Source: Micractinium sp. NFX-FRZ
Lineage: Eukaryota > Chlorophyta > Trebouxiophyceae > Chlorellales > Chlorellaceae
Assembly (NCBI GenBank): GCA_029339195.1
Contig: JAPTJF010000001.1
Span: 248,001-312,000, forward strand
Direction: 5' to 3'
DNA: 64,000 bases
Shown here piece by piece: positions 4,923-63,008 of this stretch (its first letter is position 1; each line of letters starts with the position of its first letter). The notes beneath the pieces were generated by a model. That model saw only the letters and a program-made list of their open reading frames with translations, was not told the origin of the DNA and searched no databases. The translations under genes and the position numbers were made by a program.

Positions 4923-7900
4923 ATGCAGCTTCGCGCAGCCCTGCTGGTAGTGCTGCTAGCGGCTTTGCAGGCGGCAGGTGCGCACGCCGCCGGGTCCCGC
5001 ATGACATGTTGGCTGGCGGCGGTTGACAGGCGGGTGTGACACAAGCGGCCTCCAGTGGCCCAGCCTCCCTTCAGAGCTCGGAATGCGCGCTCTGTGAGCA
5101 GAGCCGCCGGATGGAGCGCGGTTAGAGCGGTGGGTAGCAGCCGCTGCGGTGCGCCGGCTTCCTCCTACGCCGCACTCGCCATGCCACCTGTCGACACCTG
5201 CCGCACGCATCGGCCTCACACCATCCACCACCCTCTGCCCGCTTGCAGCCTTCCCATGCACCCCCAGCAACCTGGCAGCCTGCCCCAAGCCCCCTGGCTC
5301 GCTTGCCAGCACTGACCAGATCCCACAGTTCATCACCAGTAAGCACTGCTGCCGGGGTGGTTGGTAGCGCTGGGGCCGGTACTGCTGCAAGTGCGGCGGC
5401 GGCGGCGGTTGCTGCATTGGGTTTGTGTTGCCCAAGCTGCTGCTGCTGCCACTTCGGGGTGCATCTGGCTGCCATGTTGTTGCTTCTCTGCTATAAAAAA
5501 AACAAGTTCCCCCAGACTGAGCAACCCTGTCGCCCATCCCACTTCTCGCTGCCACAAACTGCTGTATGCGCCCATCGCAGCACCCTCCCTTTGCAGCTGC
5601 TGCCATCCTGCTCACGGCCTGGTCCTCTACCGCCTTCACTTATCACAATTCCATGCACCCCACCACCTCGCCGTTGTGCAGTTACGTGGGACGATGCCAT
5701 TACCAGCCCTGCCTACAATCTCATCCAGGCAATCGTGGGCGGGTTGAAGCAGCGCAACGGGTGCCCCGTCCCCTCCACTTTCTTCGTCACCGCAACCAGT
5801 GAGGGGGGCAGGGCCACGCGGGGGGGAACAGTCGCTGGGTGTGTGCTGCTGCTGCCTGCCGTGCGGTGCTCCTTGCTTGATTGACGTACACATGGACATG
5901 CATGGGCCCAATCCAGCTCATCTGTCAAGGGCTTGCGTCACCGCCATGGCCCCCCTCTGCAGACACCATTGCGGCAGCGGTGCAAGCTCTGTATTTGGGA
6001 TCAAACGAGGTACAGTGCACCGCGCCCCGGCGTGCTTGCAGCTGTAGGGCACGCTGCCAGTACGACCTGCCCTGATGATCGCAGCCATTTGAGCTCAGTT
6101 ATGACATGCACAACCCTTATGCAAGCTCAGCCCCTGTGGAATTCACGCATCTTGCAGCTCACCCCCAGTGCCTTCCTGTGCCTCCCTCCCTCCATGCCCC
6201 TCACAGATCGCCACCCACACCCTCACTCACGTCAGCTACCCCTCTGCCGAAGAGATTGTGGGTGCGCGCGACTGGCTGGTCAACAACACAGGCATCCCCG
6301 TTGAGAAGATCAACGGGTTCAGGTGGGGAGGGCTCCCGTCCTCTGCTGCCTGCAAGTGCCCTGCCACGTGCCACCCCGCTCCTGTAGACACGATTCTACA
6401 CCCAGCACAGCACAGCAGTTCCCTCACCCAGCCCCCTGCTCCCTGCCCCGCCGTGCCATGCCTGCAGGGCTCCCTTCCTGCTGCACAACGCCGACATGCG
6501 GGCAGCGCTGGCGGAGGCCGGCTTCAAGTACGACTCCAGCATGCCCGACATCGTGCCCTCCCAGGTTTCGCCCGAAGTGGGCCAGCGCACCTGGCCCTAC
6601 AAAATGGACGGAGGCATCCCACAAAACTGCTCCACTGGTGCGTGAATATTGGCTGGCCTGCGTGAGCGTACGTGCTAAGTGTGCCTGCCTCCCTCTCTGT
6701 CTGGTTGCATCTGCTTGTGGTGCACGACCTGCGTGCTCCAGCCCACGTCTGCCTGCCTGGCTGCATGCATGCCCTTGCTTGCTTCTCTCTCTGCTTGCAG
6801 GCAGCTGCAGCCCCAGCGGGGTCGCACGACCTTCAGATGTCCTCCAACTTACGTCTGCCTCCTTTCCTCTTCGGCTGTGCCTTCCTGCAGGCAGCTGCAG
6901 CCCCAGTGAGGTGTACGACCTGTGCTCTCCAGCCCGTGTCTGCTTCCCTGCCTGGCTGACCTTGCTTGCATCTCTCTGCTTGCAGGCAGCTGCAGCCCCA
7001 GCGAGGTGTACGACCTGTGGGAGATCCCGCTGTGGTCGGTGATGGACACAGCGCTGAGGCCCATTGCCAGCATGGACCCGCCTGGCAACGCGTACGACAA
7101 CTACAAGCGGGAGGTGAGGGGGCAGGGGCACGAAATACGTGTGACAAGTACAAGCGCGAGGTGGTTGTTGGGGGGTGGCTGGGAAGCAGGCAGGCAATTC
7201 GGCATGGCATGACAAGGACAAGCCTGCTGTTTCCAGGGGATGAGGAAACAGCAGGAATGTGGGCGTGAGGTAGGGTTGCATTGCAAGTTGCAGGGCACAG
7301 CAACACATGGCCTCACTGCAACTTAATGCTTCAACCCCTACAAGTTACTGACGGTGGCTCCTCATCTCCCCGCCTCCCCGCCTGCAGCTGGAGTGGCGCC
7401 TGGCCGGCAACCGTGCCCCCCTGGGCCTCTTCTTCCACGCAGGTGTGACCTGAGAGCGGGGACCACGCGGGCTGCCAAGCTCACCGACGGAACGGCAGCT
7501 GCTTAGTGGATGGCAGCAGCAGCTGCCTTTGTGCCCCCACAGTGCATGACCTCCCGGCCTCAACGCCTCATGTGCATACGGCTCCCCCGCCCGCTCACCT
7601 CGCCCCCCATGCCTGCCTGATCTCCGCCTGACCCTGCCGGCCCTGCCCTCTCCCTGCTCCCCGCAGGCCTCCAATCCGACGCCACCCGGGTGAAGGAACT
7701 GCGCCAGTTCATCGAGTATGCTGCCGCCCTGCCCGACGTGGTGAGTCCCCGCCCACCGTGTGTGTGTGTGCATGTGCGCGTGGTGTCACAGCAAGCCCAC
7801 CCACCCATGTCGGCTGCCCCATCACAAGCCCCCACTCCATGCACTTGCCCTCACATCGCCCGTCCACATCCCAGCGGCCGCTGTAATCGCAGTGTTGCGT

Positions 7901-9322: not shown

Positions 9323-12300
9323 TCAGTCCAGCATCTTGCCATACAGGGTGTAGGCATGCACCCGGTCGACGGTCACATCCACCAGCTGACCCTTGAGCTT
9401 GGCCCCATCCCCCGGGAAGTAGAGCAGCTTGTTGTGCCGCGTGCGCCCCCTCGCCTGCGGGACAGGGCAGGGCAGGGAGGGCAGGGGAGGGCGGCGGCAG
9501 AGGGTGAGAGGGGTGCGCGAGTGCGTGTGTGAGGCAGGAAGGTGAGGCGGGCAGCGCAGGAGGAAGGCGGAGCAGGGGTGGGCGGGGCAGGGGAGCGGGG
9601 CGGGCGGGCAAGTAGGATGCCATCCAGGCAGGGAGCGGCAGGCGCCCTGTGTGAGTTTGGTTGTTGCAACTGCCCACACCTGCAACGTGCGGCAGCAGCA
9701 TGCACCCGGCTGCCAGCGTGCCCAGGCAGCAGCAGGACCTGCCGCTGCTATCACCGACCTGCTCAGGATCACGCGGGTTGGGGCCCTCCACCAATACCTG
9801 CATAGCACAGCATGCACAGCACGCACAGCGCAGGTCAGCAGGCGTAGAGCAGCGGCCCATGACCACAATTCAAGGCAAGCAGAGCAGCCCCGAACAAATA
9901 GAAAGCAGGCCGATCCTAGCAGGCCGCACGACGCGTGCTCACTCGCTCGCTTGCCCTGCGCCCTCAAGCAGCTGAGGAGGCAGGCCAGGAGGGGCGGCGG
10001 CCCCCTCCACCATGCACCCAGCACCCAGCACTTTCCATTCACACAAGTAATGCACCCTACAAAGCAGTCCCACCCCTGCCTGGCCCCACCTGCAGGTCCC
10101 GCCCCAGGAAGCGCTGCGCCCCCCTTCCCCATGCAGCCCAGCACCCAGCACTGTTCACCCTATGTAACCTAACACCCAACTCCTGCCACCCCTGCCCGAC
10201 CCCACCTGCAGGTCGCGCCCCAGGAAGCGCTGCGCCCGCTCCTCCATACGCAGCTTAATTCACTCTCACACCAAGGTAATCCCTCACAAAGCCCTCCCAC
10301 CCCTGCCCCCACCTGCAGGTCGCGCCCCAGGAAGCGCTGCGCCCGCTCCTCCGCCACCCTGTTGACCACAGCGTTCAGCCGGTTCAGGCGGTCGGCCTTG
10401 ATCAGGTCCGCCACCTGGTTCTCCCAGACAGCGGCGGGGGTGCCGGGGCGCGGCGAGTAGGCGGCTGCAGGCAGGGGTTGTTGGGGGGTCGGTTGGTGGG
10501 GGGCGCGGGGTGATAAGTGACACGCGCCTGGCAGGATTCTTGTTCCGCGCCCAACCCTGAAACAGCCTTTCACCTCATGCTAGTGCCCACCCGACCAGGC
10601 CTGTCCTCCCCCACAACCGCCCCCAGCTGTCGCCCGGTCAAACCTGCCCAACAGCTGGTCAAACCTGACCAGTTCAAACCCGACCTCCTCCACCAGCGCC
10701 ACTGCCCGCTACGCCCCCATCGCCAGCACCCACACACGCCCGGCAAACCTCCTGTGCCCGACAGCTGGCCAACCCACCCACCCACCCCACCTGTGTTGAC
10801 CCGGTCAAACCCGACCTCCTCCACCAGCGCCACCGTCCGCTCAAACTGCTCCTCCGTCTCCCCGGGGAAGCCCACAATGGCGTCGCCGCTGACGCTGGCG
10901 TCGGGCATGTAGCGCCGGATGGAGTTGATGATTTCGCGGTACCGCTCGTGTGTGTAGCCTGCCCAGGGGGAGGGTCAGGTTCAAAAGGTTGGGGGTGTGT
11001 GGCTTTGGGGCACAAGGTTAACACCCTTGCCCTGAGTCTGGGGCGTGGAGGCACACCCACTACATGTGAGGGCACCGCCTTGGCCGCAGCATGGCGGCGC
11101 CGCCTCACCGCTGCTGCCCTGCCTCGCCCTGCAAAAGCTGCCGCTCAGCTGCACTGGCCGAATCGACCCACCCCCGCCACTGCCCGCCCGCCCACCCACC
11201 CACCGCGCTTCATCTCCCTCAGAATGTCGTTGTCCCCCGACTGGAAGGGGATATGGAAGAACTCGCACAGCTTGTCCAGCTCAGAGCACGCCCTGCAGCG
11301 GTGACATGGGACCATCACACGTGACGTGACGTGGATGACCACAGGGACGTGGAATGATGCACGAGGGTGAGGTTGGTGCCGGGCAGGTGGGGATCAGCAC
11401 GAAGATGCCGGTGCAGGGGATCCGTGGTGTTGAAGTGGAGGTGCAGGGGGTGCCAGGCTGCATGGGGAAGTAAGCACGCAGGCAGTGTGGCACCAACCAA
11501 CCCCAGCCATGCCCTCTCCTGCAAGCCACAACCGCACAACCATGCTCCCTCACTTGATGAGGCGCTCCGTGAAGTAGCGCGGGTGCGAGGTGGCAAAGCG
11601 GATGCGCTCGATGCCTGCAGAGGGTGCATGTGCCAGCAAGGACCCGCAGAAAGGTGAGTGGGCGCAGTCTGGGCCCGAGTGCACCTGACACGCTGCAGCG
11701 CACACGGCACCTGGTGGTGACAGATTGAAGCGCACACGGCAACATCCCAAGACGTCCCCCCGCTTGCAAGCCCGCCCCGCCAGCTCAGCGCCCCTCCTCT
11801 GCCCGCGCTCAGCACGCTGGCCCCGCTGCTGACCTGGCACGTCGTGCACGTGGTGCAGCAGGTCGGTGAAGGTCCAGGCGCGGCGCCCCGAGTTGTCGGG
11901 CGCAAATCCGGGCAGGTCACGGCCATAGGCATCCACGTTCTGCCCCAGCAGCGTCACCTGCAGGTGGCGGGCAAGGACAGCAGGAGTCTGGGCGAGAAAA
12001 GGATGGGAGGGACGCAAGCCGAAAAGGTTGCGGCCGAAAAGGTTGTGGCCATAGGCATCCGCGGGTTCTCGCCCCAGCAGCGTCACCTGCGGGTGGCGAG
12101 AGAGGACTTGCGCGCGGGGAGCAGGCAGATAGTAAGGGGAGGCGGAAGCCGGCAAGAGGGGGCACCACCTCAATCCTTCCAAACCCGGCACCATGGCCAC
12201 CAACTTGTGCCCACCCACGTGCCCCAACAACAGCAACATCCCAGCCCGGCAGCTGGCAGGTCCACAAGGCTGTGAGGGAAGCGGCGACCCACCTCCTTGT

Positions 12301-15058: not shown

Positions 15059-18000
15059 ATGACGACAGCAGTGGAGGTCAAGGCTGTGAAGCGCAGCAAG
15101 AAGTCGGAGGGGGAGCCCGTGAAGAAGGAGAAGAAGGAGAAGAAGCGCAAGTCGGCAGAGGAGGCTGCAGGTGCGCATGCATGTGGTGGCTGGCAGCCAA
15201 GAGTGGCGGCGCAACGTTTTCCGGGCCAGCCCCGATTCTAAACACCCGGCGCCTCTCCCATATTGCAGAGACGCCGGTGGTGCCCGAGAAGAAGGTCAAG
15301 AAGAGCAAGAAGGAGAAGAGCGGGAGCGACAGCGAGGGCGCCGAGGGCGCCGCCGCCGGCGCCGCCGCTGCCGCCGCCGAGCCCGCCGCCGCCCCCGCCA
15401 ACCCCTTGGCCCTCGACAACTTTGCGCTCTCCGAGCCCGTCAAGTCGCTGCTGCGCGCCAAGGGCATCCAGAGCCTGTTTGACATCCAGGCGCAGTGCCT
15501 GACCCCGCTGCTGGGCGGCAAGGACTTGGTGGGCCGCGCCCGCACCGGCTGCGGCAAGACCCTCGCTTTCGTGCTCCCCATCATTGAGCGCCTCGCCACG
15601 GGCGGCAATGCCACCTCCAAGCGCGCCTACGGCCGCCCGCCCTCGGTGGTGGTCCTGGCGCCCACTCGCGAGCTGGCAAAGCAGGTTGGTGGGCCGGGGG
15701 TTGCGGTGCGGGCGGGGCGGGTGGGCGTATGGTTGGGTGGCGGCTGCCTGCAGCTGGGACCGACGGCACTGGCTGCTTTGGTGCTTCTGTGCAGGCATAC
15801 ACAGGCATCTGGATGCATCTGCCTGTAGAAGGCCTTCAACTTGATGCAACACTTGCTGCACACTCTCAAGGCGGTGGCCTCAAAGCCCATCCGAACTGTC
15901 TTCACCCTGCCGCCCCCCACATCTCATGCACCCTAAACCCTCCTCAACCTGTTCCTTTCTCCTCTCTTCCGCTCAGGTGGCCAACGACTTTGAGTACTAC
16001 GCCAAGGCCTTCAATCTGGCCAGCGTCTGCCTCTACGGTGGCACGCAGTACTCTCCCCAAGAGGGAGTCCTGCGCCGGGGCGTGGACGTGGTCATCGGCA
16101 CGCCGGGGCGCGTGAAGGACCACCTGGAGCGCGGCACGCTCGACCTGAGGTGCGTCAGCCGTGCGGGCCTTGTGGTACCGCAGGCAAACATGGGTGCTGG
16201 TGGTCGGGGAAGCGTGCAGGGCTGGTGGGCGGGGGATGTGAGTTGGAAGGCGTCGTCGCATGGAGCACGCCTGGTGCAAGCTCGACCTGAGGTGGCGCCA
16301 GCCTCGCCTTGTGCACTTGGGAAGCCTGGGCGCCGGTGGGTTGGGATGTGTGTGTGCATCAGGCGGAGTTCGACTCCATGCTGGGTGTATGCAACCAGGC
16401 GAGGTTTTATGCATGCCGCTTCCCCGCTTCCAACTCTGTCTCCAGCTTGCCCCCCTCCATTCCCGCCCCCTCTTGGCCTGCCCGCCTGCAGCCAGCTCAA
16501 GCGCCACACTCATGTGCGCTTCCCTGCTAACCCTCTAACTGCCCAGCTTGCCCCTCCTCACCCCCCCCGCCCGCCCGCCTGCAGCAAGCTCAAGTTCCGT
16601 GTGCTGGACGAGTGCGACGAGATGCTCAACATGGGGTTTGTGGAAGACGTGGAGAAGATCCTGAATGCCGGCGTGGACGTGGAGTCGGTGCAGACGCTGC
16701 TCTTCTCCGCCACGCTGCCCGTGTGGGTCAAGGAAATCACAAAGCGCTTCCTCAAGCCCGGCTTCAGCACAGTGGACCTGGTGGGCTCAGACAAGATGAA
16801 GGTGAGGGGGGCGGGTGTTTCATGTGTGGTTGTTGCCTTTGTTAGTTTGAGGGGTGCTGGGAGGCTGGGGCCTGGTGGGCACCGACAAGATGAAGGTGAG
16901 GGGGTGTCTGAACCGCTCGATTCGCTAAAGTCTGCCTGTGTGCAAGGTGCTCTATTCGCTTCCATCTGCCTGCAAGTGGCTGGGGGCTGTAGCCGAAAGA
17001 TGATGGGGGGTTGGGGCTATGCGGAGCTGCTGCTGCTGGTGGGGAGCGTGACTGCCGTGGCAGCAGCAGCAGCAGTGGCAGGGAGCCCAAGGTGGGCACT
17101 TGAGGGGTTGTTGGGTGCGGCAGCCTGTGCTGTGCACTGCCCAGCATGCCCGGCTCTGCCCCCGACCCTACCTCTCCCTTCCCCTCTCCCCTCCCCCCCA
17201 GGCCTCCACCAGCGTGCGCCACTTGCTGCTGCCGTGCCACTGGAGCCAGCGCAACCAGCTGGTGCCCGACCTGGTCAAGTGCTACGGTGAGACCAGGGAG
17301 AGCAGCGGGCACGCAACGCCGGCTGGCTTGGACGGTTGATGGGGTGGGATGGCGAGCTGTTGCCCAGCTGGATGGCAGAGGGTTATGCAGGCTGGCTGGC
17401 GCACTGAGCAGTGCAGGGCGCCGGCCCGGGCGAACCCTCGTCCTGCTGTGCGCTCTCTGAACCTCCATCACCTGCCCTCCATCGCCCCATCACCCCACAC
17501 AGTCGTTGCATCCCCCTCCTCATGTACCGTGCCCTCACCCACCCACCCACCCGCCCCACCCCGCAGGCTGCTGCGGCCGCACCATTGTGTTCACTGAGAC
17601 CAAGAACGACGCCAATGAGCTGGCGGGGGCGCTGAGCGAGGTCAACGGCGCGCGGCCGCTGCACGGAGACATCCCGCAGGCGCAGCGCGAGGTGGGGATG
17701 GGCGGGTGGCGCTGGGAGGGGCGCACGCGCTGCTTGGGATGGCTGCGCAGAGCGGGTCTGGTTTACGCCTAGGGGGGTGGTGCGTGAGCGCACAGCGCAG
17801 CATAGCGCTTGCGTGTGCAGCGCGTGCCTCCCGCCTGCCTCAACATCGTGCCTCTCCTCTCCCTCTGCTCCCCTCACCCTGCCCGCACAGGTCACCCTGG
17901 CCGGCTTCCGCAGCGGCAAGTTCAACGTGCTGGTGGCCACAGACGTGGCCGCCCGCGGGCTGGACATCAACGGGGTGGAGCTGGTCATCCAGCTGGAGCC

Positions 18001-20633
18001 GCCGAAGGACCCAGAGGTGGGCTTCTTTTTTACATGTTGCAGAGTAGATGCAGTTCTTTATGGGGGGGGGTGAGTGGGGTGTCAGTGGAAGGGGGAGCTG
18101 GTGATTCAGCTGGAGCTGCGCAAGGACCCCGAGGTGCGGTGTCATTGGGATGGTGCAGTGCAGTGCAGTGCAATGCAGGTGTACTGCCATGTGTGGGGGG
18201 ACGCGGGGTGTCAGTGGTGGGGAGGGGAGGGGATTCAGCTGGAGCCACTGAAGGACCCCGAGGCGGGCTTCATTGCAGGAATTGCAGTGCAGGTGCACTG
18301 CCACTTGCGAGAAGCGGGTTTGTCAGTGGAGGGGAGGGCGGGTCGCACCACTTGGCACCTATAGGGACCCAGAGGGGACGCAGCTGGTGTGACGTCGCAT
18401 GCATGCAATTTGTTCTGCAATCTTCGTAGAAGGGAGAAGCTGGCGCCAAAGGCTGCGCGGCTCGTAACCCCTCCACCGCCTGCTTGCCGCCCCTCCCCCC
18501 TCCCCGCCTGCCGCCGCAGACGTACATCCACCGCAGCGGGCGGACGGGGCGCGCGGGCAGCACAGGCATCAGCCTCACCCTGGTGGACCGCAAGAAGGAG
18601 GGGCTCATCCCCTACATCCAGGTGCGCTGAGCTGGCGGTGGGGGGCTGAGCTGGCAACAGAGGGTTTGAGGGTGCAGGGTTTGAGGCGGCAGGCAGTGGA
18701 GCTGGCGGCACTGCTGCGCTGCCGCGTTGACGCTGCCGCGATGGCACTGTCGGCGTGGGGCTAGCAACAATTGCGTGGTGGCCGGCCACCTGCCTGCCTG
18801 GAACCTTCGGTGCACAACACGCCTGCTGGCCCACCCGCCTGCCTGCCCGCCTGCCTGCCTTTTCCACCATCGAACACCAACTGACCCGGCACCCCTCGCT
18901 CTCTGCCCTCCCTGCCCCCTCTGCCCTCCCCTCCCCCCCCTCCCCCCGCAGACCAAGGCTGGCCTCAAGTTTGAGCGTGTGGGCGCCCCCCAGCCCAGCG
19001 ACATGGCCACGGTGGCTGGCGAGCGCGCTCTGGAGGCGGTGGTTGCAGTGGATGCCTCGGTGCTGCCCTTCTTCCGCCAGGCGGCCGCCAAGCTGCTGGA
19101 GGTGGGTGGGGAGGGGCAGGTGGAGGGGTGGGGGAGGAGGAGGGGTGGAGGGGCGCGGTGGGCAAGGGGCAGTGCTGTGCCCACTCCTCTTCACGCAGCC
19201 CCCACCGGCGGTAACACCCTCTCTACTGTCGCTCCCGCCCCTGCCCCTTCATCTCGCCCCTCTCCTCCCCTCCTCTCCCCCGCTGCAGACGGTGGGCAGC
19301 GCTGAGGACGCGCTGGCCATGGCCCTGGCCAAGATCACGGGGCACGTGGAGCTGCGCGCCCGCTCCCTGCTCACCGCACACGACGACCATCAGACCCTGC
19401 AGTTCATCAGCCCATGGCCCGTGGACAAGCCCGGCCAGGTGGGGCGCTGGGCGCTGGGCACACACACGCTTGCTTGCTTGCATGCGCGGATGGGCGGGTG
19501 GGGCTGCGCACACACAGCACGCTTGCATGCACGGATGGGCGGGTGTGGAGTGGCGGCGGGCGTGCGCTGTCCACACACCTCCGCACGACGGAAGCACGCT
19601 GCTGGGCACATCCCTCGCCCTCCAACTCCTGGTTTCAACCGCCTCCCTTCCCCCTCTTCTTTCTCCCATCCGCCCCCTCACGGGTCCCCCTCCCTCTCAC
19701 TTCTCACACACCCCTCTCCCCTCTTCACCCCCGCCAGGTGTTTGGCTTCCTGCGCATGCATAGGTTGACCGCCTCCCGCCTCTCTCCCCCTCTCACCCCT
19801 CCTCACGCTCCCCCCCGACACACACAGGTGTTTGGCTTCCTGCGCAAGCACATCCACGAGGAGGAGACGCTGAACGAGGTGAAGCGCATGACGCTGACGG
19901 CAGACGGACAGGGGGCCGTGTTTGACGTCCCCACCGCCCTGGCAAAGGTGCGCCCGCGCCTCCTGGTAGTCCTGCGCTTCGTGTTGGGGGGTTCAGGGCT
20001 GTGACCCTCCTGCTGTGGGCGGGCTGGGAGAGCAGGGCTGGGCGGTGAGGAGCGCCGGGCTGGGGTGAGCTTGGGCGGGAGACGAGCGTGCGGCTCAAAG
20101 CGCACGAGTCCGTAGCGGCGCGCGGTGCTCACCTGCACCGCGCCCGACCCTGTCACAGGGCGCCCGCCCTCCTCATCTGCCTGCTTGTCAACTCATCAAG
20201 CCCGCCACCCACTCCCGACCCCACCTGCTCACCCTCCTTTGCCTGCTGCCCCATACCCTGCACTTGCCTCCCCGCTCAGCCCCACCCCTGCCCCTCTCCG
20301 CCTCCCAACCCGCTCCCCCCCCGTCCCGGCCTGCAGGAGTTCCTCACAAAGTGCGGCAAGCATGAGGCGGCGCGCGACGTGGCGCACCTGGTGGCAGCCA
20401 CCACCCTGCCCGAGCTCAAGGAGCGGGAGCAGCAGTACGGCAGCGGCGGCGGCTACGGCGCCAGCCCAGGCGGCAACGGCTTCCAGCGCGGCGGCTACAG
20501 CGGCGGGCGCGGCGGCGGCGGCTACGGCGGCCGCGGCGGCAGCAGCGGGTTTGGCGGGCGCGGCGGCAGCAGCGGGCGGGGCGGAGGGTTTGGCGGGCGG
20601 GGCGGCGGCCGCGGCGGGTTCAACCGGTACTAG
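15059..20633 (+). CDS. Nucleolar DEAD-box RNA helicase with GUCT domain (DDX21/plant RH7 type)
   Basis: Twelve exons: 15059-15170, 15269-15684, 15977-16149, 16585-16801, 17202-17286, 17567-17691, 17891-18016, 18520-18621, 18952-19101, 19289-19438, 19828-19947, 20337-20633. Phases close for 690 aa. The N-terminus is Lys-rich ([19 protein letters not shown]), then Ala-rich. Core motifs: ARTGCGKT (I, about 128-135), APTRELA (Ia), GTPGR (Ib), DECD (II, in place of DEAD), SAT (III), [11 protein letters not shown] (V) and [10 protein letters not shown] (VI). The GUCT domain follows ([11 protein letters not shown]...[15 protein letters not shown]), then a GGR/RGG tail ending FNRY. The family unwinds rRNA precursors and snoRNA duplexes in the nucleolus. 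Introns after exons 4 and 7 and before exon 11 contain junction relics. Confidence 0.95.
16868..16902 (+). repeat. Copy of the exon-4 3' junction in intron
   Basis: CTGGTGGGC..CGACAAGATGAAG|GTGAGG repeats the exon end CTGGTGGGCTCAGACAAGATGAAG|GTGAGG (near 16778-16807), about 90 bp downstream, with an intact donor. Confidence 0.85.
18080..18375 (+). repeat. Three degenerating copies of the exon-7 3' junction
   Basis: The exon end encoding [15 protein letters not shown] (to 18016) recurs at about 18095-18140 (would read [14 protein letters not shown], followed by GTGCGG), 18225-18275 ([10 protein letters not shown], donor lost) and 18325-18375 (most decayed). Period is roughly 110-130 bp. Similarity falls with distance from the true exon. 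Confidence 0.85.
19459..19560 (+). repeat. Intronic tandem duplication
   Basis: Two direct copies of a segment running from CACACAC..GCTTGC to GCGGATGGGCGGGTG, about 50 bp each, in the intron after helicase exon 10. Confidence 0.7.
19729..19763 (+). repeat. Copy of the exon-11 5' junction in the upstream intron
   Basis: CAG|GTGTTTGGCTTCCTGCGC at 19735-19755 duplicates the true start of exon 11 at 19828, 90 bp away. Using it would soon reach a stop (ATGCATAGG). Confidence 0.85.
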
Positions 20634-24561: not shown

Positions 24562-26398
24562 ATGATCTACGGTGCCTGCAGCCCCATCGGGACACGGCAA
24601 GGTGTTGCGGCACCCCCCACGTGCCGCCGCCAGTTCCCGCCCCGGAGTGTACCAACCGCCACCTCACGCACCGTCCTTTGTGCACCCCCCTCCTGCCTGC
24701 AGCACAGCTCCGCTAGGCACCCCTTGTCCCAGCCCACGTGCGTGCTCGGCCGCGAGGCACCTGCCGCCGACGTCGTACTGCCCGACGCCAGCGTCAGCCG
24801 CCAGCACGCCGCATTTGTGTGGCATTCCGACGGCCGCCTCTTTGTGATTGACCTTGCTTCGGTGGGTCCGGTAGCTGAGGATGTTTTATGTGGGGCTGGA
24901 TGGTGCAGCGGCGCCGGCTGGGCGCTGTTACCCGGAGCCAGGTGTGTTGTGAACATGGGTGGGCAGACAGGCAGGGCAGACAGCTTGCTGTCGGCCGCCC
25001 GGCTGTGCTTGCCCAACGCGCTGCCCCCCCCCACAAACCTGACCCCCGGTGTCCCACCCTGCACCCCCCGCCCTCCCACGCAGCGCGAGGGCGTGACGGT
25101 CAACGGCCGCCGCATCCCTGCCAACAAGCCCACGCAGCTGTCGCACAGCGCGTCGCTGCGCTTTGGCCGCTCTCCCCAGCAGTTCACAGTTGAAATGGCA
25201 GGCAGCGGGGAGCCGGCGCAAGTGCGGGCCAGCCACCTGCTGGTCAAGCACGCCGGGTCGCGGCGCCCGTCCAGCTGGAAAGAAGCCCAGGTGACGCGCA
25301 GCCAGGAGGAGGCGCTACAGATGGTGCAGGCATTCAGGTGCGGGGCGGGGCGGCAGTCGGCAGGGCCTGGGTGGGTGCATTGGTTGTGGTGCGGTTGGAT
25401 GGGTGGAGGTGATGCGCAGGCGGCAGGAGGGGCAGAGGAGGGGCAGGCGTCTTATGTTATTGTGGATGCAGTTTTAGGGAAGAGGCGCTGCACATGGGAC
25501 AGGTGTTCAGGTGTGGTGCGGGTCGCAGCGTGGGGGGCGGGTGCTGGCCGATTGGCAAGTGGGTGCTTGTGAGTGTTGGTTGCGGCCTGGTGGGTTGACA
25601 GGTGGGTACCTGGCTGCTGTCCGTGTCCATGTGGATGCTTGCTTGTTTGGAGGACTCCGTGTTGGGTGGCTGGGGCACTGGGTGCTGGCAAAGGCAGCTG
25701 CCCGGCTTGGCAAGCAGGGCTGGGTGCACGGGGGGCCCCGGGTGCTTGTGCCTCAATTGTGCATCACTTTCAGGCATCCAGCTGTCGCCACACAGGCCCT
25801 GAGCAGCTGCGCTCCTCCGCTCTCCATCGCCCAACATCCCCCGGCAACCCAATGCCCCTTCCTGCTTGCAGGGAGCAGATTGTGGCCTCCGGAGATGTTG
25901 CCGGCACGTTTGCACACCTGGCCAGCACTGAGAGCCACTGCAGCAGCGCCCGCGCCGGCGGAGACCTTGGCTGGTTCGGGTGCGTGCGTTGCCCCCTGCT
26001 GCTGCCTCCTGCTGCCTCCTGCTGCCGGCTGCTTATGCCTGCTGCTGCCGGCTGCTTGCACCTGCCGTGGGGCCCGGCTGCTGGTCGCCCATCTTTGGCA
26101 GCCACACTGGTGCACTACTGCCTCACAGCTGCGCCCTGCTCCCATGCTCAGCCACCCAACCTGACACGCATGCCTCAGTGCTGTGGCCTCCTGGAGGTCA
26201 TGTGGATGTGAACATCGGCGCTCCTGGTTGCCACCCACCCCAAGCCCCCTCTGCTCATGCTCCCCGCCTTGCGTTACGTGCAGGCGCGGCCAGATGCAGC
26301 GCACGTTCGAGGAGGCAACCTATGCTTTGGAGGTTGGGGAGCTGAGCCCGCCCGTGTTCTCAGACTCTGGCGTGCACATCATCCTGCGCACTGGCTGA
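24562..26398 (+). CDS. FHA domain + parvulin (Pin1-type) peptidyl-prolyl isomerase (start uncertain)
   Basis: Supported exons: one ending 24861, then 25084-25337, 25872-25979 and 26284-26398 (TGA), all in phase. The 5' exon start is not fixed; the frame is open from 24562. The FHA core is visible: [28 protein letters not shown], then [25 protein letters not shown] (Gly-Arg, Ser-x-x-His and Asn-Gly landmarks). A complete parvulin domain follows: [51 protein letters not shown]. Expected role: cis-trans isomerisation of pSer/pThr-Pro bonds, with the FHA module supplying phosphothreonine binding where animal and fungal Pin1 use a WW domain. Plant Pin1At has neither. A similar FHA-parvulin layout is known from trypanosomes (Par42). 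Confidence 0.85.
25493..25524 (+). repeat. Degenerate copy of an exon 3' junction
   Basis: ATGGGACAGGTGTTCAG|GTGTGG echoes the exon end ATGGTGCAGGCATTCAG|GTGCGG (25321-25343), 174 bp downstream in the same intron. Confidence 0.65.
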
Positions 26399-26672
26399 GC
26401 AACCAAAGAGAAGCGGCGGCAGAAGCGGCGGCCCCTGGCGGCGGCACCTGGCGGCGGCACCTGGCGACGGCAGCGCCTTGGGCGCGGCCGTGAGGCAATC
26501 GCGCATGTTACCTTGACTGCCTGGCAGCATGGGTGTTGTGGATGCACCGCAGTATGTGAACATGGCATGCAGAAGTGAAGCATGGGGAATGGGCAGTGTA
26601 CCTCGCCGCCCGTCCTGCCCCGCCACAGCGGCATGTAGGGGCCCGCCCGACCAATTGTGGCACTCTCTCACC

Positions 26673-29600: not shown

Positions 29601-29747
29601 GAGGCCGAGCACGCGGCGATTGGGCACGATGCGGTGGTGTCGTTTGTGCCTGCGGCTGAGGAGCCTGTGCTGCGGCGGGCCATTCAGGATCACGACCGCG
29701 ACATGGCCGCCTTCTATAACCACCTGGCCGACCTGCTGGAGGCGTGA
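26673..29747 (+). CDS. Plastid-targeted all-helical protein of heme-oxygenase-like (HDO) fold, putative
   Basis: Eight exons: 26673-26780, 26864-26927, 27068-27120, 27415-27496, 27910-28101, 28589-28749, 29069-29212, 29586-29747. Phases close for 321 aa. The N-terminus (MASVVLAASAPVVAAQAPQQ, then Arg/Ala/Val-rich) is typical of a chloroplast transit peptide. The mature part is helical, with EYGMHNSEAQARTHRELFSI, YNLAIEYLADYEKTW and LEVHAEGEAEHAAIGHDAV. The last, HxxxExxH, resembles the C-terminal metal-ligand helix of heme-oxygenase-like diiron proteins (CADD/TENA/PqqC group). It lacks convincing HO-1 (HY1) landmarks, so I do not call it heme oxygenase. Reaction unknown. A TGTAA polyadenylation-like motif lies at 30189-30193. 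The gene carries the strongest junction duplications in the window. Confidence 0.75.
28171..28228 (+). repeat. Near-perfect copy of exon-5 3' end with donor
   Basis: A 38-nt identical block starts at 28059 (exon 5) and again at 28179, exactly 120 bp apart. It encodes PLAGEYGMHNSEA. The true donor is GGTGGG; the copy has GGTGAA. Confidence 0.92.
28261..28588 (+). repeat. Tandem array of exon-6 5' junctions (three extra acceptors)
   Basis: The true exon start at 28589 (CTGCAG|CCCGCACCCACCGC) is preceded by copies starting at 28497 and 28405, each exactly 92 bp apart, and a diverged copy at 28266 (GCAG|CCCGCGTCCACCACA). Each unit contains about 40 nt of exon-like sequence (ARTHRKLFSI-like) plus polypyrimidine tract and AG. 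The 28405 and 28497 units are nearly identical to each other. Confidence 0.93.
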
Positions 29748-47600: not shown

Positions 47601-50193
47601 TCCCAACTGCCCAGCCACCCCTCCCTCCTCCCTCCCTCCCACCCTCGCCTGTTCCCTCCCTGGCATCAATTGACGTGCAGCACTGACCAACCCCATCTAC
47701 GGCCTCTTCTTCCTCTTTCCCGAGCTGGAGCGTGCCGTCAAGTGGGCCGCCAACGCGCTGCCCACCCCAGCCTTCCAACAGGTGAGCAAAGTGTGTGTGC
47801 GATTTCAGTGAGGCGTGTGGGTGCGTCACGTACCGTGCATGCCATGAAGCGCTGCCGGTTCGCAGAGGGCACTATAACCGTGCACTTGCCTGCCCGCCTG
47901 CCAGCCCTCGGCCGCCTTCTCTCAAGCCTCTCCCCCACCCACCGCCCCCCACCCACAATACCCACCCCACCCGCCACACAACTTCACCTCACACAAGCAC
48001 CCCCTCCATGCCTCCCTCCCTCCCTCCCTCCTTTCTTCAGGAGCTTGCCGCCCGAGCAGAGCTGAGGCACGTGGGTGTGGATCTAGTGAAGCAGCACCTG
48101 GCCCACTCCGCCCTGCTGGCCAAGCCCGCTGACGCTGCGCACTCAGCACGCGCAGCGCGCCCCGCTGTGGTCGACCCCGGCAGCTTCCTGGCGCTCATCG
48201 CCCCCACCATGGGCAAGGAGGTGGCGGGGGAGACGCTGGGAGAGGTGTGGGCGGCCGGCCAGGGCGCCACTTTCATCATTACTGGTGCGCATGCAAGCGA
48301 GTGCCTCCCGGCCTCCCTGCTGCCCACCTGCCCTCCTGCCCGCCCTGTCAGTATCATCGTCTTTGTGCACCGCTCGACTTGCCTTGAATTACCCAAAAAT
48401 GCTTACAAAACGCAGGCTTGTGACCATCAATCGTCCCTGTATCCCTGTGCCACACTGCCGCGGCGCCGCAAGTGTTTGCCATTGGTGCTGCCTACAGCTG
48501 CCACCGCTGCTCTTCTGGACCAACCTGAACCCTGCCACTTCTTCTTCTGCCCCCCATGCAGGGTACGAGTCCACCGCCAACCTGCTGTGCTTCGCCATCT
48601 ACCTGCTGGCATCACACCCGGGTGGGGCTGGGCAGGGCAGGGGCGAAGGGCTGGGTGGAATTGTGAGGTTGGGATGCCCGCCGCTTGCATGCACCCACGT
48701 GCTGCCTGACCAGGCAATGCACGCCCCTGCTTGCCTTGCCCCCCTCCCCTGTGCCTGCCTGTCCCCCGTGCAGAGCAGGAGGCGCGGCTGCTGGCCGAGG
48801 CCGACTCCTTTGGCCCCTCCTCCTCCCTCCCCGAGGGAATGGGCCCCGAAGTTGTGGAGTCGCGCCTGCCCTTCACCTGGGCGGTGGTGCACGAGGCGCT
48901 GCGCATCCTGCCGCCGTCCCCCATACACATCCGGGAGGCCAAGGAGGGGATGGTGCTGGGAGGGCTGCGCATGCCGGCCAACGCCCAGCTGCAGGTGCGG
49001 GTGGCCTGGACAATGGGAGCTGGTGCAGTGGCCGACACAGGCCGGTGCAGTGCCAGCCAACGTTCAGCTTGCCCGCCCCAGTGAGCACCCCGCCCTGCCC
49101 TGGCCAACCCGTCCCTTTCCCCCTTGCTGCCAGGTCACTGTCAACTGCATGCGCCGCACAAGCTTCCTCCTACACATGCCCACATGCCCACCCCACCCGT
49201 CTCTGCCCCACCCGTGCCTCTGCCCACATGCACCCCCTCCCAGGTCAACGTCAGCTCTATGCACCGCAGCGAGCGGTGGTGGCGCGACCCCCTGGCCTTC
49301 AAGCCAGAGCGCTTCATCCCCGGCACACCCGAGGCTGCAGAGGTGGGTGCGGGGTGGAGCAGGGCGGGGTGGAGTGGAGTGGGGCGCTGCTGGAGGGGCG
49401 GCACGGCCCGCTGGCCAAGTGGGAGGTGCAGCGCCAGCAAGGCAGGGCTGCGGTGTTGATGCGGTGCAGCTCTGGGGACAAGAGGAAGAAATAACTGCGC
49501 TTGCCTCAGTCTTCCCCCTGTAGTCGCCTGCTCGTCCCTGAAAACATGATTGCTGGCATCACCCAGCGCCTGCAGACCACCCCCGGCGCCTTCCTGCCGT
49601 TCGGCGACGGCGCCCGCAAGTCAGTGGGGGCGGGCTGTGGGGAGGAGGACGGGACCTGCACCTGAAAAAGTGACAATCACGGCTACAGTGCAGCAGCACA
49701 CCTGACATGCTACCTGCCACCTTTGCTGACTCGGCTTTCTCTCCTTCCCCCATGCCCATCCTTGAAACAATGACAGGTGCATTGGCTACAAATTTGCTCT
49801 GATGGAGGCCACCCTCTCGCTGGCCAAGCTGTACCGGCAGGTGAGGGGCTGGGTGGGCACTTGCAAGATGATGGGGGTGCCTGGACCCCTATCCGTGTGG
49901 CCACTGGAGCAGCGGCAGTGGCCGCCTGCCTGCCTTTAAAGCCTGCCAGCCTGCCTGAGTGCCCATGTGTATGCCCAGTCCTGCGGCTGACTGCGGTGTT
50001 GTGTTGTTGCTGGCTATCGGATCAAGCCACGAGGCAAGCCAGGCCCTCATTGTCCCCCACACTTGCCCGCCCGTGTTGTGCTGTGCAGTACACCTTCCGC
50101 CTGCTTCCGGGCCAGATTCCGCTCAAGACCAAGACCGTGTTGACTATGGGCCCAGCAGATGGGGTGCGGGTGACTGTGCACCGCCGCAGCTAG
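44649..50193 (+). CDS. Cytochrome P450 (tandem copy B)
   Basis: Sixteen exons with the same intron positions and phases as copy A: 44649-44693, 44936-44996, 45157-45224, 45495-45586, 45951-46095, 46302-46433, 46786-46805, 47159-47289, 47681-47781, 48041-48284, 48562-48621, 48774-48994, 49244-49342, 49576-49619, 49777-49840, 50089-50193. Total 543 aa. Motifs: hinge IPGPPFRWLVGHLPEVL, I-helix TGYESTAN, K-helix HEALR, PERF, heme loop FGDGARKCIGYKF. Differences from copy A fall in predicted substrate-contact stretches (IHIREAKEGM versus MGIREAKEGI; IPPDAAL versus MPANAQL), so the two may differ in substrate. Exon 14 starts at 49576 by analogy with copy A; an upstream AG at 49523 would break phase. 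Confidence 0.94.
49130..49157 (+). repeat. Copy of the exon-13 5' junction in the upstream intron
   Basis: CCAG|GTCACTGTCAACTGCATGCG CCGC echoes the exon start CCAG|GTCAACGTCAGCTCTATGCA CCGC at 49244, about 110 bp away. Confidence 0.7.
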
Positions 50194-56760: not shown

Positions 56761-59200
56761 ATTTGGAACGCTGACAGTGGCAGCCAGGATGTCGAGTCTG
56801 GGCTGCTGTATCCCGGGGCAGACAGCCTGGACAATGCCCTGCGGTGGGGGTTTGTGCGCAAGGTGAGAAGCGAGGCGCGGCCGTTCCCACGCTTTGTTTG
56901 GTACGTGGTGCCTCGGAGGTCGCCTCTCCCTCCTCCCTATTTCATCCTAGCCCTCCTCCTTTTCTTCACCTCCGTCACCAGCTTCAGGCGCCCATCCCGC
57001 CTGCTCTGCTCCTAGCGCGCTCACCACTCGCCCCCTTCCCTCCCTCCTTCTCCACCCTCCCCCTCCCTCTCCACCCTGCAGGTGTACGGCATCATCGCTC
57101 TACAACTGGTCATGACCGCCATCGTGGCCGCCGTGGTGGCTACCAACGCATCGGTACAGCACTTCCTGTTTGCAAACTGGGGCCTCCATGTGGCGCTCAT
57201 GCTGCTGTCCATTCTGGGCCTCATCCCGCTCTACATCTACCGGCAGAAGCACCCACTCAACCTGGTGCTGCTGGGCTGCTGGACGCCCATGTTCTCAGGT
57301 GCGGCGGTGTGTGTGTGTAGGCGGGCAGGCTATGGGAGGGGACAGCAGCACCCGCTCGCAACCTGGTGCTTCTGGGTTGCTGGATGCACATGTTGAGGGT
57401 CGGTCATACTGGGCGGGATTGTGGGCACTCAGAGAGAGGCCAGAACCTTGTGACCACCCCTCCCCGCACCCCCTCACCCCTGAACTGCTCCTTTTCATGC
57501 AGTCGCCATGGGGGCGGCCCGTACCGGCTACCAGCCCTCCCCTCTCCTCCCTCCTCGCCAACTCCCCCTTCCTTCCACAAACCCACCGTCTCCTCTCTCC
57601 TCTCTCCACTCCTGCCCTGCAGTGACCGTGGGCATGGCCTGCGCCTACTACCAGCCCGCCATCGTGCTGGAGGCACTGGTCATCACAGCAGCCGTGGTCC
57701 TGGGCCTCACAGCATACGCCTTCCACGCCACCAAGCGGGGCGTCGACTTCAGGTGGGGGTGCTGGGTTCACGAGGGCGGGGCGGGGTGGGGTGTCCAGGC
57801 TTTGGCGGGCGGGCCATCCAGGGAGGGAGGGTGGGTGGGGGAGGGCGGCGGGCACCCATGCGTTGCTGTGCACATAGGTGAGAGGCGGGCCAGAAGAGCG
57901 GTTGTGGTTGACCCGACCTGGCAGGCGCAGCGCTTCCAGCGCATGGGTTGCCCCGCACGCCCCGCACAGCCCTCCCTCCACACACTCACGCTGGCCCTCC
58001 ACCCGCCCACGCAGCCCACCTCTCTGTCACATCTCCCCTCCCCTCCCCTCCTGCTCCTCCGCCCTTCCCATGCCTTGAACCCCTCGCCCACTCTTCCCCC
58101 TCCACGGCTGTGACCCCCCCCCCCCCCCCCCCCCGCAGCTTCATGGGCCCCATGCTGTCGGGCTGCCTCATGGCCCTCATCGTGTGGAGCCTGGTGCAGA
58201 TGTTCTGGCCGCCCGGCCCCGTGGGCAGCACCATCTTCTCGCTGCTGGGGGCCATGCTGTTCAGGTGGGCGGGGTGGGGCCCTGGGCGTGCGGGATCCGG
58301 GGACAGGCAGCACATGCGGCACCGCCCTTGCCCGGCGCCTGGGGCTGCACCTGCGTTGCCTGCCTGCTCGCCCACGTATGTCTGCCTGCCAGGTTGGCCG
58401 TGCCGCACGACACCCCCTGCTGCGGCTCCCTGCCACAACACCTTTACCGTGGACCCCCTGCCAGGCATCCCTGCCATGCCCAAGGGCCCCAACCTTGTTC
58501 CCTTCCCTGCAACTGCCAGCACCTCTCACCCGCTCTCTACTGACCCCTGGGCACCCCACCTTCCCTCCCTGCAGCGCCTACCTCGTGTTTGACACCCAGC
58601 TGCTCATCCAGCGCTACGGTGCGATTGGTGCTGCACGGAGCAAGGAGCCAGCTGCTCCCTGCCTGGCTGGCTGCTCCACCTGGCAGCTTTGGAGATGCAT
58701 CGGCCTGCTGCCCTCCGTGACGAGCACGCTGGCCAGCTTCCTTGCGACTGCTCTCTTCCCCCTGCCCTGCCACTCCCCTGCCCTGCAGACCTGGATGACT
58801 ACATCTGGGCCTCCCTCAACATCTACCTGGGTGAGTGCAGCGCGTGCTGACCTCAGCAGGGACCTGTAACAGCCCTTGCCCCTGCCCTGCCCTGCTGGAA
58901 GCAACGCCTCCTGCTGGCGCCCCACCCCACCTGCTGCCTCGGCACCTTGATCCCCCTGACCTGCTCCACCCCGTCTGCCCTGGCCGCCCTGCCTGCGCTG
59001 CTCTGCCTGCCGCACTGCTCTGCCGGGGGGATGCTCCAGCCTGCAGCCTGCCCAACCCCGCCCTCCCAAGCGGCGCCCTCCCGTCCAACCCCTCCTTTCC
59101 TCTCCCACCCACCCACCCCTCCCTCCTCCTCCCACCCACAGATGTGATCAACCTCTTCATGTACATCCTGCGCGCCCTGGGGCAGAGCCAGAGAGACTAG
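56761..59200 (+). CDS. Bax inhibitor-1 / Lifeguard (TMBIM) family membrane protein, first exon unresolved
   Basis: Seven supported exons: 56761-56862, 57082-57298, 57623-57752, 58139-58264, 58575-58618, 58789-58830, 59142-59200 (TAG), 239 aa in phase. Family landmarks: ESGLLYPGADSLDNALRWGF VRKVYGI, then about seven hydrophobic helices (GIIALQLVMTAIVAAVVAT; ALMLLSILGLIPLYIY; ITAAVVLGLTAYAFHATK; MLSGCLMALIVWSLVQMF). The conserved end is AYLVFDTQLLIQRYDLDDYI, ASLNIYLDVINLFMYILRAL. The paired Asp residues in the last segments are those linked to pH-dependent Ca2+ leak in this family. Expected location: Golgi/ER membrane, with a role in Ca2+ homeostasis and stress-induced cell-death control. A TGTAA motif lies at 59535-59539. 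Confidence 0.92.
57347..57400 (+). repeat. Copy of an exon 3' junction in the downstream intron
   Basis: CACCCGCTCGCAACCTGGTG ... TTGCTGGATGCACATGTT repeats the exon end encoding HPLNLVLLGCWTPMF (57250-57298), about 100 bp downstream. The donor is lost (GAGGGT). Confidence 0.85.
58114..58134 (+). repeat. Run of 21 C immediately before a splice acceptor
   Basis: An uninterrupted C21 followed by GCAG|C forms the polypyrimidine tract of the fourth resolved BI-1 exon (58139). Confidence 0.9.
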
Positions 59201-60013: not shown

Positions 60014-63008
60014 CTACTGCTCCTTCTTCTTGGCGGCGCGGTACACGCCCACAACCACAGCGTGGTCGCGCTCATACGGCTCCAGCGTGACCTGCGAGGG
60101 GAGGGGAGGGGAGGGGAGGGGAGCGGGGAAGGAGGACAGGAGAGGAGTGTGGGTGTACGATCAATGATCAGATGCAGTGGGTGGGCGGGGTGCAGTGGGG
60201 TGCAAGGGAAGAAAAAAAGCTAGTGCGCATAGCGGTGGTCAGATGCGGCGATGTGGGTGGGATGGGGTTGGGTGGGCTGCGGTGTGGCGGTGCCGTGCGG
60301 GGTGCACAGGACTTCGACACAGGGTGCAGCCAGGATAGGTAGTTCCAAAGTGCAGGTTTTTTGTGGCGCTGAAAGGGGCTGTCAGAGTCATGGAAGAAGG
60401 GTCATGTTGCGGAGCCGCCGCGGGGCGCGGGGCACCCCCGCAAGGGGGGCCCGCGCCCGCTCACGGGGCAGGCATCCCGGATCGGTAAAGTGTCGTCACT
60501 CAGCCCAGAGGGGTTGGGGTGCAGATGGTGGTGTGCAGCGTGGTAAAAGGGCAGCAGCCGTGCAAGCAGACCCTCACATGCAAACATGTTGCCCCTGCCT
60601 GCCTGCCGCGCCCAGATGCCGGCCGCAATATGAATACATACACGCCTGCTCCCTGGGTTTCGGTTGCTGCCCCGACAGCTTCTCGACCCCTCACTCCTGA
60701 GCAGCCCAAAGAATAGGAAGAAAGAAGCGCGCACCTGCTCCTTGGGTTTGAGTTGCTGCTCCTGCAGCTTCTTGACCTCGCGCGCAAACACGGCCTCGGG
60801 GGGCGCCGTCGAGTCGATGCACGACGCCTTGATGGAGATCACAAAGTTGCCGCCGTTCTTCAGGAAGTACTGGGAGTTGAGGCCCACAATGCGGGCCTGG
60901 CGCGGGAGAGGGGAGAGGGGGGAAGCGGCGGGAGGGGGAGGAGCGGCGGCATGAAGGATAGGAAGTAGACATGAGCAGGTAGCTTGTACTATGTGAGCGA
61001 GCGAGGCTGGAGGGAGTACAAGAAGCGGGGCGCATCCCGTCGGGGTGTGCAGCATGCATGCGCGGGTACAGACTCACCACACCCTAGGCCCCCGACACTT
61101 GTAACAGTGTGCAAGAAGCAGGCACCTCCCCCTCTGCCCCTCTGGTCGGGCTGCGCCACGTCAGCAGACACGGCGTCCACCATGGTGTTGACCCACAAAA
61201 CCCTAGCGCTCTCACACCCTTGTGCTAGCTTTGGCACTAGCGGCACCGTTGCGTGACACCCCTCTCAGCCCCACCTGGTCGGGCTGCGCCACATCAGCAA
61301 ACACGACGTCCACCATGGGCACGAGCATGCGATACTTCTGGGGGTGCCGCGCATCCTCGATGATGGGGATCACGTTGGGGCGCTTCTTGGCCATGTTGAC
61401 CAGGTCGCGGCCGCTGCACGGGGGTGGGCGGGCGTTGGGATGATGCACGGACAAGGTGAGGAGGGAGCGAGGAGGGAGCAAGGGTGAGGGGTCCAGCAAG
61501 CACGGCGGCTCCCTCTGCCCAGCACTGGGCGATCTCCGGCAAGCCCGTCTCGAGTCTGTGAGGGCAAGCACCCCCTGGCAGCTCGGCCCGCCCAGCCGCC
61601 AGCCCACCCCCTGGCAGCTGACTGGTTTCATCTGCGGTGCACCCTGCCAGCACACCATGCCACCAGCAGTGTAAAGAGTAGGGCCGGGTTAACACCAAGG
61701 AGGCCAGTGCGGCACACCTGCGGTGGGAGAACTCGACTGCGTAGACAGAGCCCTCGGGGCCCACCACATCAGAGACGTGGCTCACAGACGTGCCAGACGC
61801 GCCGCCCAGGTACAGCACCTGCCGCAGGGGAGGAGCAGAGAGAAACAGACGGAGCACGGTGGTCGGAGCGGGCGGGCGCGCGGGCGGGCAGGCGGAGGGG
61901 ACAGGGCTGGGCGGGCGCCCAAGCCAGTGTGCGTGCGCTGCACTGGAAGCACACGCACACTCCCCCTTCAACTTTGTGATTGCATCACACTGCGCCCACC
62001 TTGGCGCCGGGCTTGATGTGGATGTTGTCCACTCCTGCCAGCACCGCCGCCGCAATCTTGGAGCGGAACGGGTTCCACACGCGGTACTCAATCTTCTCGC
62101 CGCCCTCCTGCAGTGGGGACATGGGGCATGGGGCGGGGGTGGCGGTGAGCAGGTTGGCGGCAAGGGTTGATTGCGTAGATGCGAGCAGGAGGCAGGCGGG
62201 CTAGGCACAGAAGAAGATGAGCATGGTCAGCCGCATGCACCGTGCTGCCCCCTACGCCACCCACCACACCACGAACCCATCGCCCCAAACCCTGCTGTCC
62301 CACCTGCTCCACAGAGATGCGCTTCTCGCCATACACGCTCTCGCCGGGTGCCATGTTGCGGGTCACCAGAGCGTCCTCCTTGCCACGAGCGATGAAGATG
62401 CCAGCGTGGCGGTGACCCTCCACAACCGTCTTGGCGCCGCCCTTCATGCCGCCGCGACCACCCCGGCCGCCACCGCGCCCGCCCCGACCGCCATCGCGGC
62501 CGCCGCGGCCCCGGCCGCCACCCCGGCCGCCGCCGCCAAAGCGACCGCCGCCACGGCCGCCGCCGAACTTCTCGACACCGCCACGGCCACCGCCACCGAA
62601 GCGGCCTGCAGCATAGCAACCGGGCGGGTCAGGCGGGAAGGGTCACTGGGATGTGGCGGCGCTGGAATTGGGCTGCCAATAGCAAACTGAAGGTGCAGCA
62701 GGGAGAGGGCTGTTGCCTGCCGGCTCAGCACCCCCAAAGCGGCCGACCCCTCGGCAGGCGCGACTGGCGGCAGCCTCTGGCAGGGGCCCCACCCCGATGT
62801 GGCGCAGTTCCCGCCGTGCAGGGAGGGACACGACATGCCCCTGCGCCCTGTCGAACAGGCCATAGGCTCCGCCGCTGCCTCCCCGCAGACTGCATGCCCG
62901 TGCAGCATATGCATGCAGCTGCAGCGGCCTCTGCTCACCTCCACCGCGGCCGCCGCCGCCCCGGCCACCTCCGCGGCCACCCCGGCCACCGTCGCGACCG
63001 CCGAACAT
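60014..63008 (-). CDS. FBL-like: Fibrillarin, rRNA 2'-O-methyltransferase of box C/D snoRNPs
   Basis: Seven exons: 63008-62939, 62605-62304, 62107-62000, 61818-61718, 61413-61275, 60896-60735, 60091-60014 (TAG). Phases close for 319 aa. The N-terminal Gly/Arg-rich GAR domain ([20 protein letters not shown] onward) is split by intron 1. It is followed by [53 protein letters not shown], the SAM-binding loop [64 protein letters not shown] and [15 protein letters not shown]. These are the canonical fibrillarin blocks, including the catalytic Lys/Asp positions. It acts in the nucleolus, like the GUCT helicase at 15059. Confidence 0.97.
60644..60693 (-). repeat. Copy of the exon-6 3' junction in intron
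   Basis: CTGCTCCCTGGGTTTCGGTT GCTGC (plus strand) repeats the exon end CTGCTCCTTGGGTTTGAGTT GCTGC at 60735-60785, which encodes [13 protein letters not shown], about 90 bp away. Confidence 0.85.
61142..61190 (-). repeat. Copy of the exon-5 3' end in intron
   Basis: CTGGTCGGGCTGCGCCACGT CAGCAGACACGGCGTCCACC matches exon sequence 61275-61323 (encoding [14 protein letters not shown]) with only a few substitutions, 133 bp away. The copy would read [14 protein letters not shown] and then lacks a proper donor. Confidence 0.9.
62727..62752 (-). repeat. Possible copy of the exon-2 5' end in intron 1
   Basis: A minus-strand stretch reading GRFGG next to GTCGGCCGCTTTGGGGG resembles the true exon-2 start CAG|GCCGCTTCGGTGGCGG at 62605. 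Confidence 0.4.

Follow-up and report, generated by a model that had tools for sequence, protein, structure and literature searches.

The closest described event lies in the RdRp gene of potato, where a tandem duplication over an intron–exon boundary gave rise to a new spliced intron (PMC4974935). The potato unit joins the 3′ side of an intron to the 5′ side of an exon, as do the acceptor-side events of the alga considered here, Micractinium sp. NFX-FRZ. It concerns one gene and a new intron, whereas in the alga about one intron in nine is affected, donors, acceptors and stop codons are all involved and no new intron is shown. Natural insertions of 10-1000 bp in rice are described, in PMC7407515, which cites Vaughn and Bennetzen 2014, as tandem, partially tandem or derived from within 200 bp, and are ascribed to patch-mediated break repair. 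They are local tandem or near-source insertions like the relics of the alga, but they are polymorphic, whereas the latter are fixed, decayed and known from one assembly. The Rogers model, as outlined in PMC4974935, PMC3443670 and PMC2891723, explains intron gain by tandem duplication of an AGGT-containing exon. In that model, as in the alga, a short tandem duplication brings duplicated splice-like sites; in the alga, however, pre-existing introns were lengthened, and the signature of a duplication-born intron is absent outside arrays. Introners are also a recurrent gain of sequence in introns, but they share sequence between genes (PMC9860276), whereas each relic of the alga matches its own exon.

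Our search of the open-access literature, limited in scope and thus not establishing absence from print, returned no report of such exon-end relics in Chlorella-type algae. The available portions of two Chlorella genome papers give intron lengths and do not mention them. What is new here is the density and spread of boundary-crossing duplications.

The starting point was a window of 64,000 nucleotides (C1:248001-312000; 65.5% G+C) from an assembly of 66.07 Mb in 838 contigs. With two 100-kb stretches (C2 and C5) and a held-out 50-kb stretch (C20), the material examined amounts to 314 kb of 66 Mb, all from this one assembly. Gene models came from a simple HMM trained on the window, C2 and C5, ab initio and without RNA evidence, and C20 was analysed without retraining. 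The training pass yielded 62 genes, 564 exons and 507 introns, with the splice consensus CAG/GTGAG at donors and TGCAG/G at acceptors. Direct repeats were scanned within 600 nt at an ungapped score of at least 18, low complexity being removed. Gapped self-alignment covered 494 introns with 80-nt exon flanks at any offset, each event being counted once per intron and type, and the main count covered 580 introns at offsets of 75-200 nt and a score of at least 20.

In the main count, 66 of the 580 introns repeat the end of their neighbouring exon in direct orientation, at offsets of 75-200 nt and mostly of 80-150 nt: 16/126 in the window, 22/185 in C2, 19/183 in C5 and 9/86 in the held-out C20. 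The copies comprise 45 on the donor and 26 on the acceptor side (p 0.03), numbers that recur in the any-offset set by coincidence, since the two sets differ; the donor surplus could result from a filter that disfavours misleading splice signals. A further 16 introns have matches classed as "other", including copies that the gene finder had called exons. Relic-bearing introns are thus about one in nine, and the pattern is real and striking; it is probably not the product of a special splice-site process. An earlier sequence-only reading of the window had announced some 20 loci at both donors and acceptors, and both points hold: about 20 edges are affected, in the genes that it named. Its blocks of 25-60 nt do span junctions, with an exon part that is mostly the last or first 10-60 nt adjoining the junction, and the copies are local as it said, although offsets fall mostly at 80-150 nt and not over 30-180 bp.

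All ten window proteins submitted to Pfam matched, with one match short of the curated cut-off, and the affected genes include Polysacc_deac_1, MiaB-type radical SAM, DEAD helicase, parvulin, ChaC, P450, Bax1-I and fibrillarin proteins. Most of the nine unrelated genes first proposed are therefore backed by Pfam; the weak points are the "HDO" gene, whose haem-oxygenase-like fold is matched only below the cut-off, and the ChaC case (junction 32999), which is weak and of low complexity. In the CDA-like gene (plus strand, Polysacc_deac_1), the first ~34 nt of the HMM-modelled exon 6986..7113 are copied upstream in an array. The relic at 6886..6924 (junction 6891, offset 95) is 97% identical over 39 nt, and the gene finder called a 15-nt exon there; an older relic at 6791..6834, with its junction at 6801, keeps an exon part identical to the true exon at 30/33 positions. 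The end of the gene at 1-1334, whose model has three internal stops and is truncated at the window edge, resembles by eye the end of this downstream polysaccharide-deacetylase gene (4923-8515).

The MiaB gene (minus strand, HMM model and Pfam) has the end of its exon 10313-10464 at the true donor, 10307..10352. This end recurs at 10200..10245 (offset 107, 100% over 46 nt, the intron part being homologous too) and again at 10079..10121 (offset 223, 95% over 43 nt). The same gene bears a donor-side relic of exon 10791-10958 at 10666..10710 (offset 131, 91% over 45 nt) and an acceptor-side relic of exon 11834-11957 at 12071..12107 (offset 129, 89% over 37 nt). In the helicase gene (plus strand), the exon starting at 16585 has an acceptor-side relic at 16476..16501 (offset 93, 92% over 26 nt), with an intron part homologous by the generic null and an exon part too short for the position-matched test. 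The exon ending at 16801 has a donor-side relic without intron homology at 16868..16904 (offset 94, 92% over 37 nt). Two donor-side relics follow the exon ending at 18016, one at 18091..18136 (offset 117, 85% over 46 nt, intron part homologous) and one at 18233..18274 (offset 246, 86% over 42 nt), and the exon starting at 19828 is preceded by an acceptor-side relic at 19735..19760 (offset 90, 96% over 26 nt).

Next to each other, at 24900-29747 on the plus strand, lie the parvulin and HDO-like genes. The first has a donor-side relic of its exon ending at 25337 at 25478..25525 (offset 173, 79% over 48 nt). In the second, the exon ending at 28101, whose true join is conserved in relatives, is followed by a donor-side relic without intron homology at 28174..28224 (offset 120, 96% over 51 nt). 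Two acceptor-side units of 92 nt at 28394..28577 precede exon 28589; they share 99% identity with each other, and over 44 nt they match the start of the true exon at 91%. The end of this HMM-modelled gene across its stop codon (29699..29774, the stop ending at 29747) is copied into the 3′ UTR at 29797..29876 (offset 98, 86%, score 53), a case of the first description that involves a stop codon in place of a splice junction. Identity of the HDO-like protein is 84% to a Micractinium protein and 97% to the sequence of another relative (P0001), which places the source among Chlorella-clade green algae. As a query it also matched P0003 (Chlorella ohadii, 401 aa) and P0037 (467 aa), both of which include rotamase domains, as would follow from a fusion of genes or from gene models run together.

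The two P450 paralogs stand side by side (37328-42761 and 44649-50193) with a similar exon structure and are natural outgroups for dating intron changes. Exon 49244 of P450 B (plus strand) has an acceptor-side relic at approximately 49134..49158 (offset about 103-110), and the paralogous P450 A intron has none. The BI-1 exon ending at 57298 (plus strand) is followed by a donor-side relic at 57359..57394 (offset 101, 89% over 36 nt). Fibrillarin (minus strand) has donor-side relics of exon 60735-60896 at 60645..60688 (offset 89, 84% over 44 nt) and of exon 61275-61413 at 61142..61185 (offset 133, 93% over 44 nt), the intron part of the latter being "mixed", that is, partly homologous.

The reading that we prefer, with a probability of about 0.65, is that the relics are local tandem duplications, with units mostly of 80-150 bp, which happened to lie across the limits of coding sequence; selection and visibility would have acted on them as filters. 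Duplication would strike a gene more or less anywhere, and selection would remove the events lying wholly inside exons. Events over donors, acceptors and stop codons would be tolerated, since they leave a working original site and a copy that splicing removes or that escapes translation; events over start codons would add an upstream start and would mostly be lost. A tandem duplication that carries exon material into an intron necessarily takes the junction along, so that the copied blocks would hug junctions. Intron-derived sequence would diverge faster, since both of its copies are free and it is richer in low-complexity sequence; old events would therefore keep only their exon half visible and interior events would fade. 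We infer random placement, this selective filter and a cause at the DNA level, such as the repair of staggered nicks or breaks.

Edges other than splice junctions are consistent with such a filter. The 3′ flank holds a copy of the stop-codon edge in 4/50 genes at any offset (one of them, C5 33859, at offset 44 in a weak gene) and in 3/50 at offsets of 75-200, a rate not different from that of donors (45/580) or acceptors (26/580). No spanning duplication was found at 51 start-codon edges; the stop–start contrast, which rests on small numbers, has p 0.06, or 0.12 within the offset window of 75-200. The held-out C20 gave 0/11 stop edges and 1/12 start edges, the latter inside a satellite array under a doubtful gene. 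This satellite-like array (C20 about 146990-147630) has a 47/93-nt period, extends into the doubtful gene model and holds the sole start-edge match.

Intron interiors also hold duplications with offsets of 75-200, in 17/580 introns, several of them of low complexity, and duplications of like offset occur between genes. In every stretch, the repeats inside introns belong for the most part to minisatellites with short periods of 20-60 nt in several copies, and differ clearly in size from the 80-150-nt edge duplications. The junction-to-interior ratio is 66:17 (3.9:1), and 9:4 in the held-out C20. A simulation of duplication geometry and detection, in which the decay rate of intron-derived sequence was varied, gave 0.82:1 under equal decay, which rejects uniform neutral tandem duplication with equal decay, and 1.27, 1.80 and 2.20:1 when introns decayed 2, 3 and 4 times faster. 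Against the 3- and 4-fold simulations the observed 66:17 has binomial p 0.004 and 0.03; the held-out 9:4 alone fits them. Junction copies thus exceed the most favourable simulation by up to about two-fold, and the true excess would be higher since some interior matches are of low complexity.

This excess argues for a bias at the junctions themselves, in formation or in retention, which might come about by way of chromatin, of exon-edge breaks coupled to transcription, or of a spare splice site that is of help. Junctions would then be hot spots, or keepers, of short duplications, with exon ends and their splice sites copied into the adjoining intron, preferably 80-150 nt away, several-fold more often than interiors. 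The narrowness of the copied blocks points the same way. Among 118 introns of at least 330 nt, shared 8-mers with the last or first 40 exon nt number 217 versus 10 at donors and 123 versus 8.8 at acceptors, and exon sequence 41-80 nt from the junction is hardly copied (donors 23 versus 8.3, a small excess; acceptors 8 versus 7.7, none). An exon part that seldom exceeds about 60 nt is not what uniform placement would give; the preferred reading accounts neither for this limit nor for the clustering of units at 80-150 bp. Against a junction bias stand the similar rate at stop-codon edges, the held-out ratio that suits an unbiased simulation and the neutral drift of the relics. We consider such a bias possible but unlikely, and junctions as true hot spots or keepers are a comparably doubtful proposition. 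The idea put forward from the window is accordingly borne out in part: short tandem duplication over exon edges is supported, and a process directed at splice junctions is unsupported or doubtful. Junction copies do outnumber interior ones by 66:17, and duplications away from junctions exist in fewer introns.

A second question is whether whole units were duplicated, intron half included. The intron half was homologous at p<0.05 in 22/47 events by a generic null, in an analysis from which 11/57 exon–intron pairs had been dropped (most of them belonging to a minisatellite at C5 175 kb or to blocks remote from a junction), and to which four copies miscalled as exons by the gene finder had been added manually, as they were to the identity profile of young relics. 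A position-matched null, with 9/64 events excluded for short parts, gave 15/55. Given their exon divergence, 10/55 relics fit a tandem unit, 14/55 are without the expected intron homology, 2 are mixed and 29 ambiguous. The intron half of the unit was thus duplicated too in a minority of relics, and a simple tandem duplication suits some relics well and others badly.

The relics without an intron half would suit a non-tandem templated insertion, in which break repair copies a nearby block of 25-60 nt into the intron without the intervening sequence. The exon part of these 14 relics is well kept, and young relics end sharply, their ungapped identity being down to background by some 10 nt from the junction. 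Non-tandem duplications from less than 200 bp of a break are also on record for rice in a review (PMC7407515). Such a mechanism gives no reason for blocks to hug junctions, however, and at least 10/55 relics are full tandem units. Nor are there inverted copies at exon edges (88 direct, 0 inverted; an inverted search yielded 2 interior pairs), so that inverted templated copies are rejected. Templated insertion is improbable as an explanation.

For local tandem duplication, the loss of the intron half has some support as faster decay, from five arrays and against an uncalibrated baseline. These arrays (MiaB, CDA, helicase, C5 80k and C5 5.5k) are decaying multi-copy series with a recognisable intron half, and bear out the decaying series noticed at the outset. 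In global alignments without a calibrated baseline, relic-versus-relic identity is 0.83-0.93 for the exon half and 0.70-0.84 for the intron half. Dust scores are 0.47 for exon ends versus 0.76 and 0.93 for intron flanks. Alignments covering less than three quarters of the unit number 41/71, a fraction that the simulation with 3-4-fold intron decay reproduces (0.51-0.63).

The copies decay like neutral sequence. Mismatches by codon position are 100/782, 114/789 and 142/794 (12.8, 14.4 and 17.9%), one-base indels are frequent (50/73 gaps) and offsets modulo 3 are flat (23/24/24). Splice dinucleotides are nevertheless retained in 32/45 donor and 20/26 acceptor relics (52/71 together), and many relic sites score like true sites. 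Potential decoy sites therefore exist at the level of the sequence, as the first description held, and one could take the relics for functional alternative exon ends or regulated decoys under selection. The near-even mismatches, the frameshifting indels, the offsets that are not multiples of three and the HDO-like proteins of four relatives, which have no insertion at the relic-bearing join, make this very improbable; alternative exons as such are rejected, the copy being under no coding constraint. Recursive splicing at an AG/GT in donor relics is not supported either: of the exons with donor events, 24/45 have a terminal AG, which is near the background given by the donor matrix.

Introns with a relic are longer, with a median of 376 nt versus 237 nt for those without any match, in keeping with the intron enlargement proposed from the window. 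The relic-free P450 A intron (41674-41828) measures 155 nt versus 249 nt in P450 B, that is, 94 nt less, and the relic-free intron of the CDA paralog has a predicted 241 nt versus 348 nt in the CDA-like gene.

Chance likeness of splice motifs or compositional bias, for which one might invoke the TGCAG/G and CAG/GTGAG common to splice sites, is refuted for practical purposes by the near-zero yield of every control: dinucleotide-shuffled introns (0 donor, 0.4 acceptor and 0.8 interior matches per set over 5 sets, versus 48, 29 and 22 real ones), three far-offset controls at the same threshold (0 versus 125 direct repeats within 600 nt) and intron-versus-other-intron alignments (8.8 expected versus 165 matches in 103 introns by gapped self-alignment). 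The regularity claimed by the sequence-only reading is therefore beyond chance, and shuffled introns, the comparison that it proposed, fail to reproduce it. Its exclusion of a transposon stands as well: cross-intron controls gave 0.2 donor and 0-0.2 acceptor matches, with no one element common to many introns. A repeated, partly self-complementary element at C2:190815-191260 (TGGAAAGAAC...GTTCTTTCCA), with several copies at spacings of 73, 256 and 329, resembles a small inverted-repeat element.

The creation of new introns, which the same reading had envisaged, is not supported. An intron born by duplication should carry a copy of the exon end at its far end, at an offset equal to the intron length. 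This signature, at a score of at least 18, appeared in 7/1152 comparisons against a null of 0; the predicted introns concerned all measure 80-91 nt and lie mostly between copies inside arrays. No clean duplication-born intron was found outside arrays in these 1152 comparisons.

The relics also have a bearing on annotation. The gene finder called them exons at several places in the window, and some will be called exons by ab initio gene finders. The exon half would provide a built-in clock, one copy being constrained and the other free, and the relics offer many natural test cases of which extra copies the spliceosome tolerates. Should junctions prove to be hot spots, decoy sites and additional intron length would be supplied continually. 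If about 11% of the introns of this compact algal genome are affected, tandem duplication would rank as a major source of both intron length and cryptic splice sites, and the first step of duplication-based intron gain could readily be tested in this alga.
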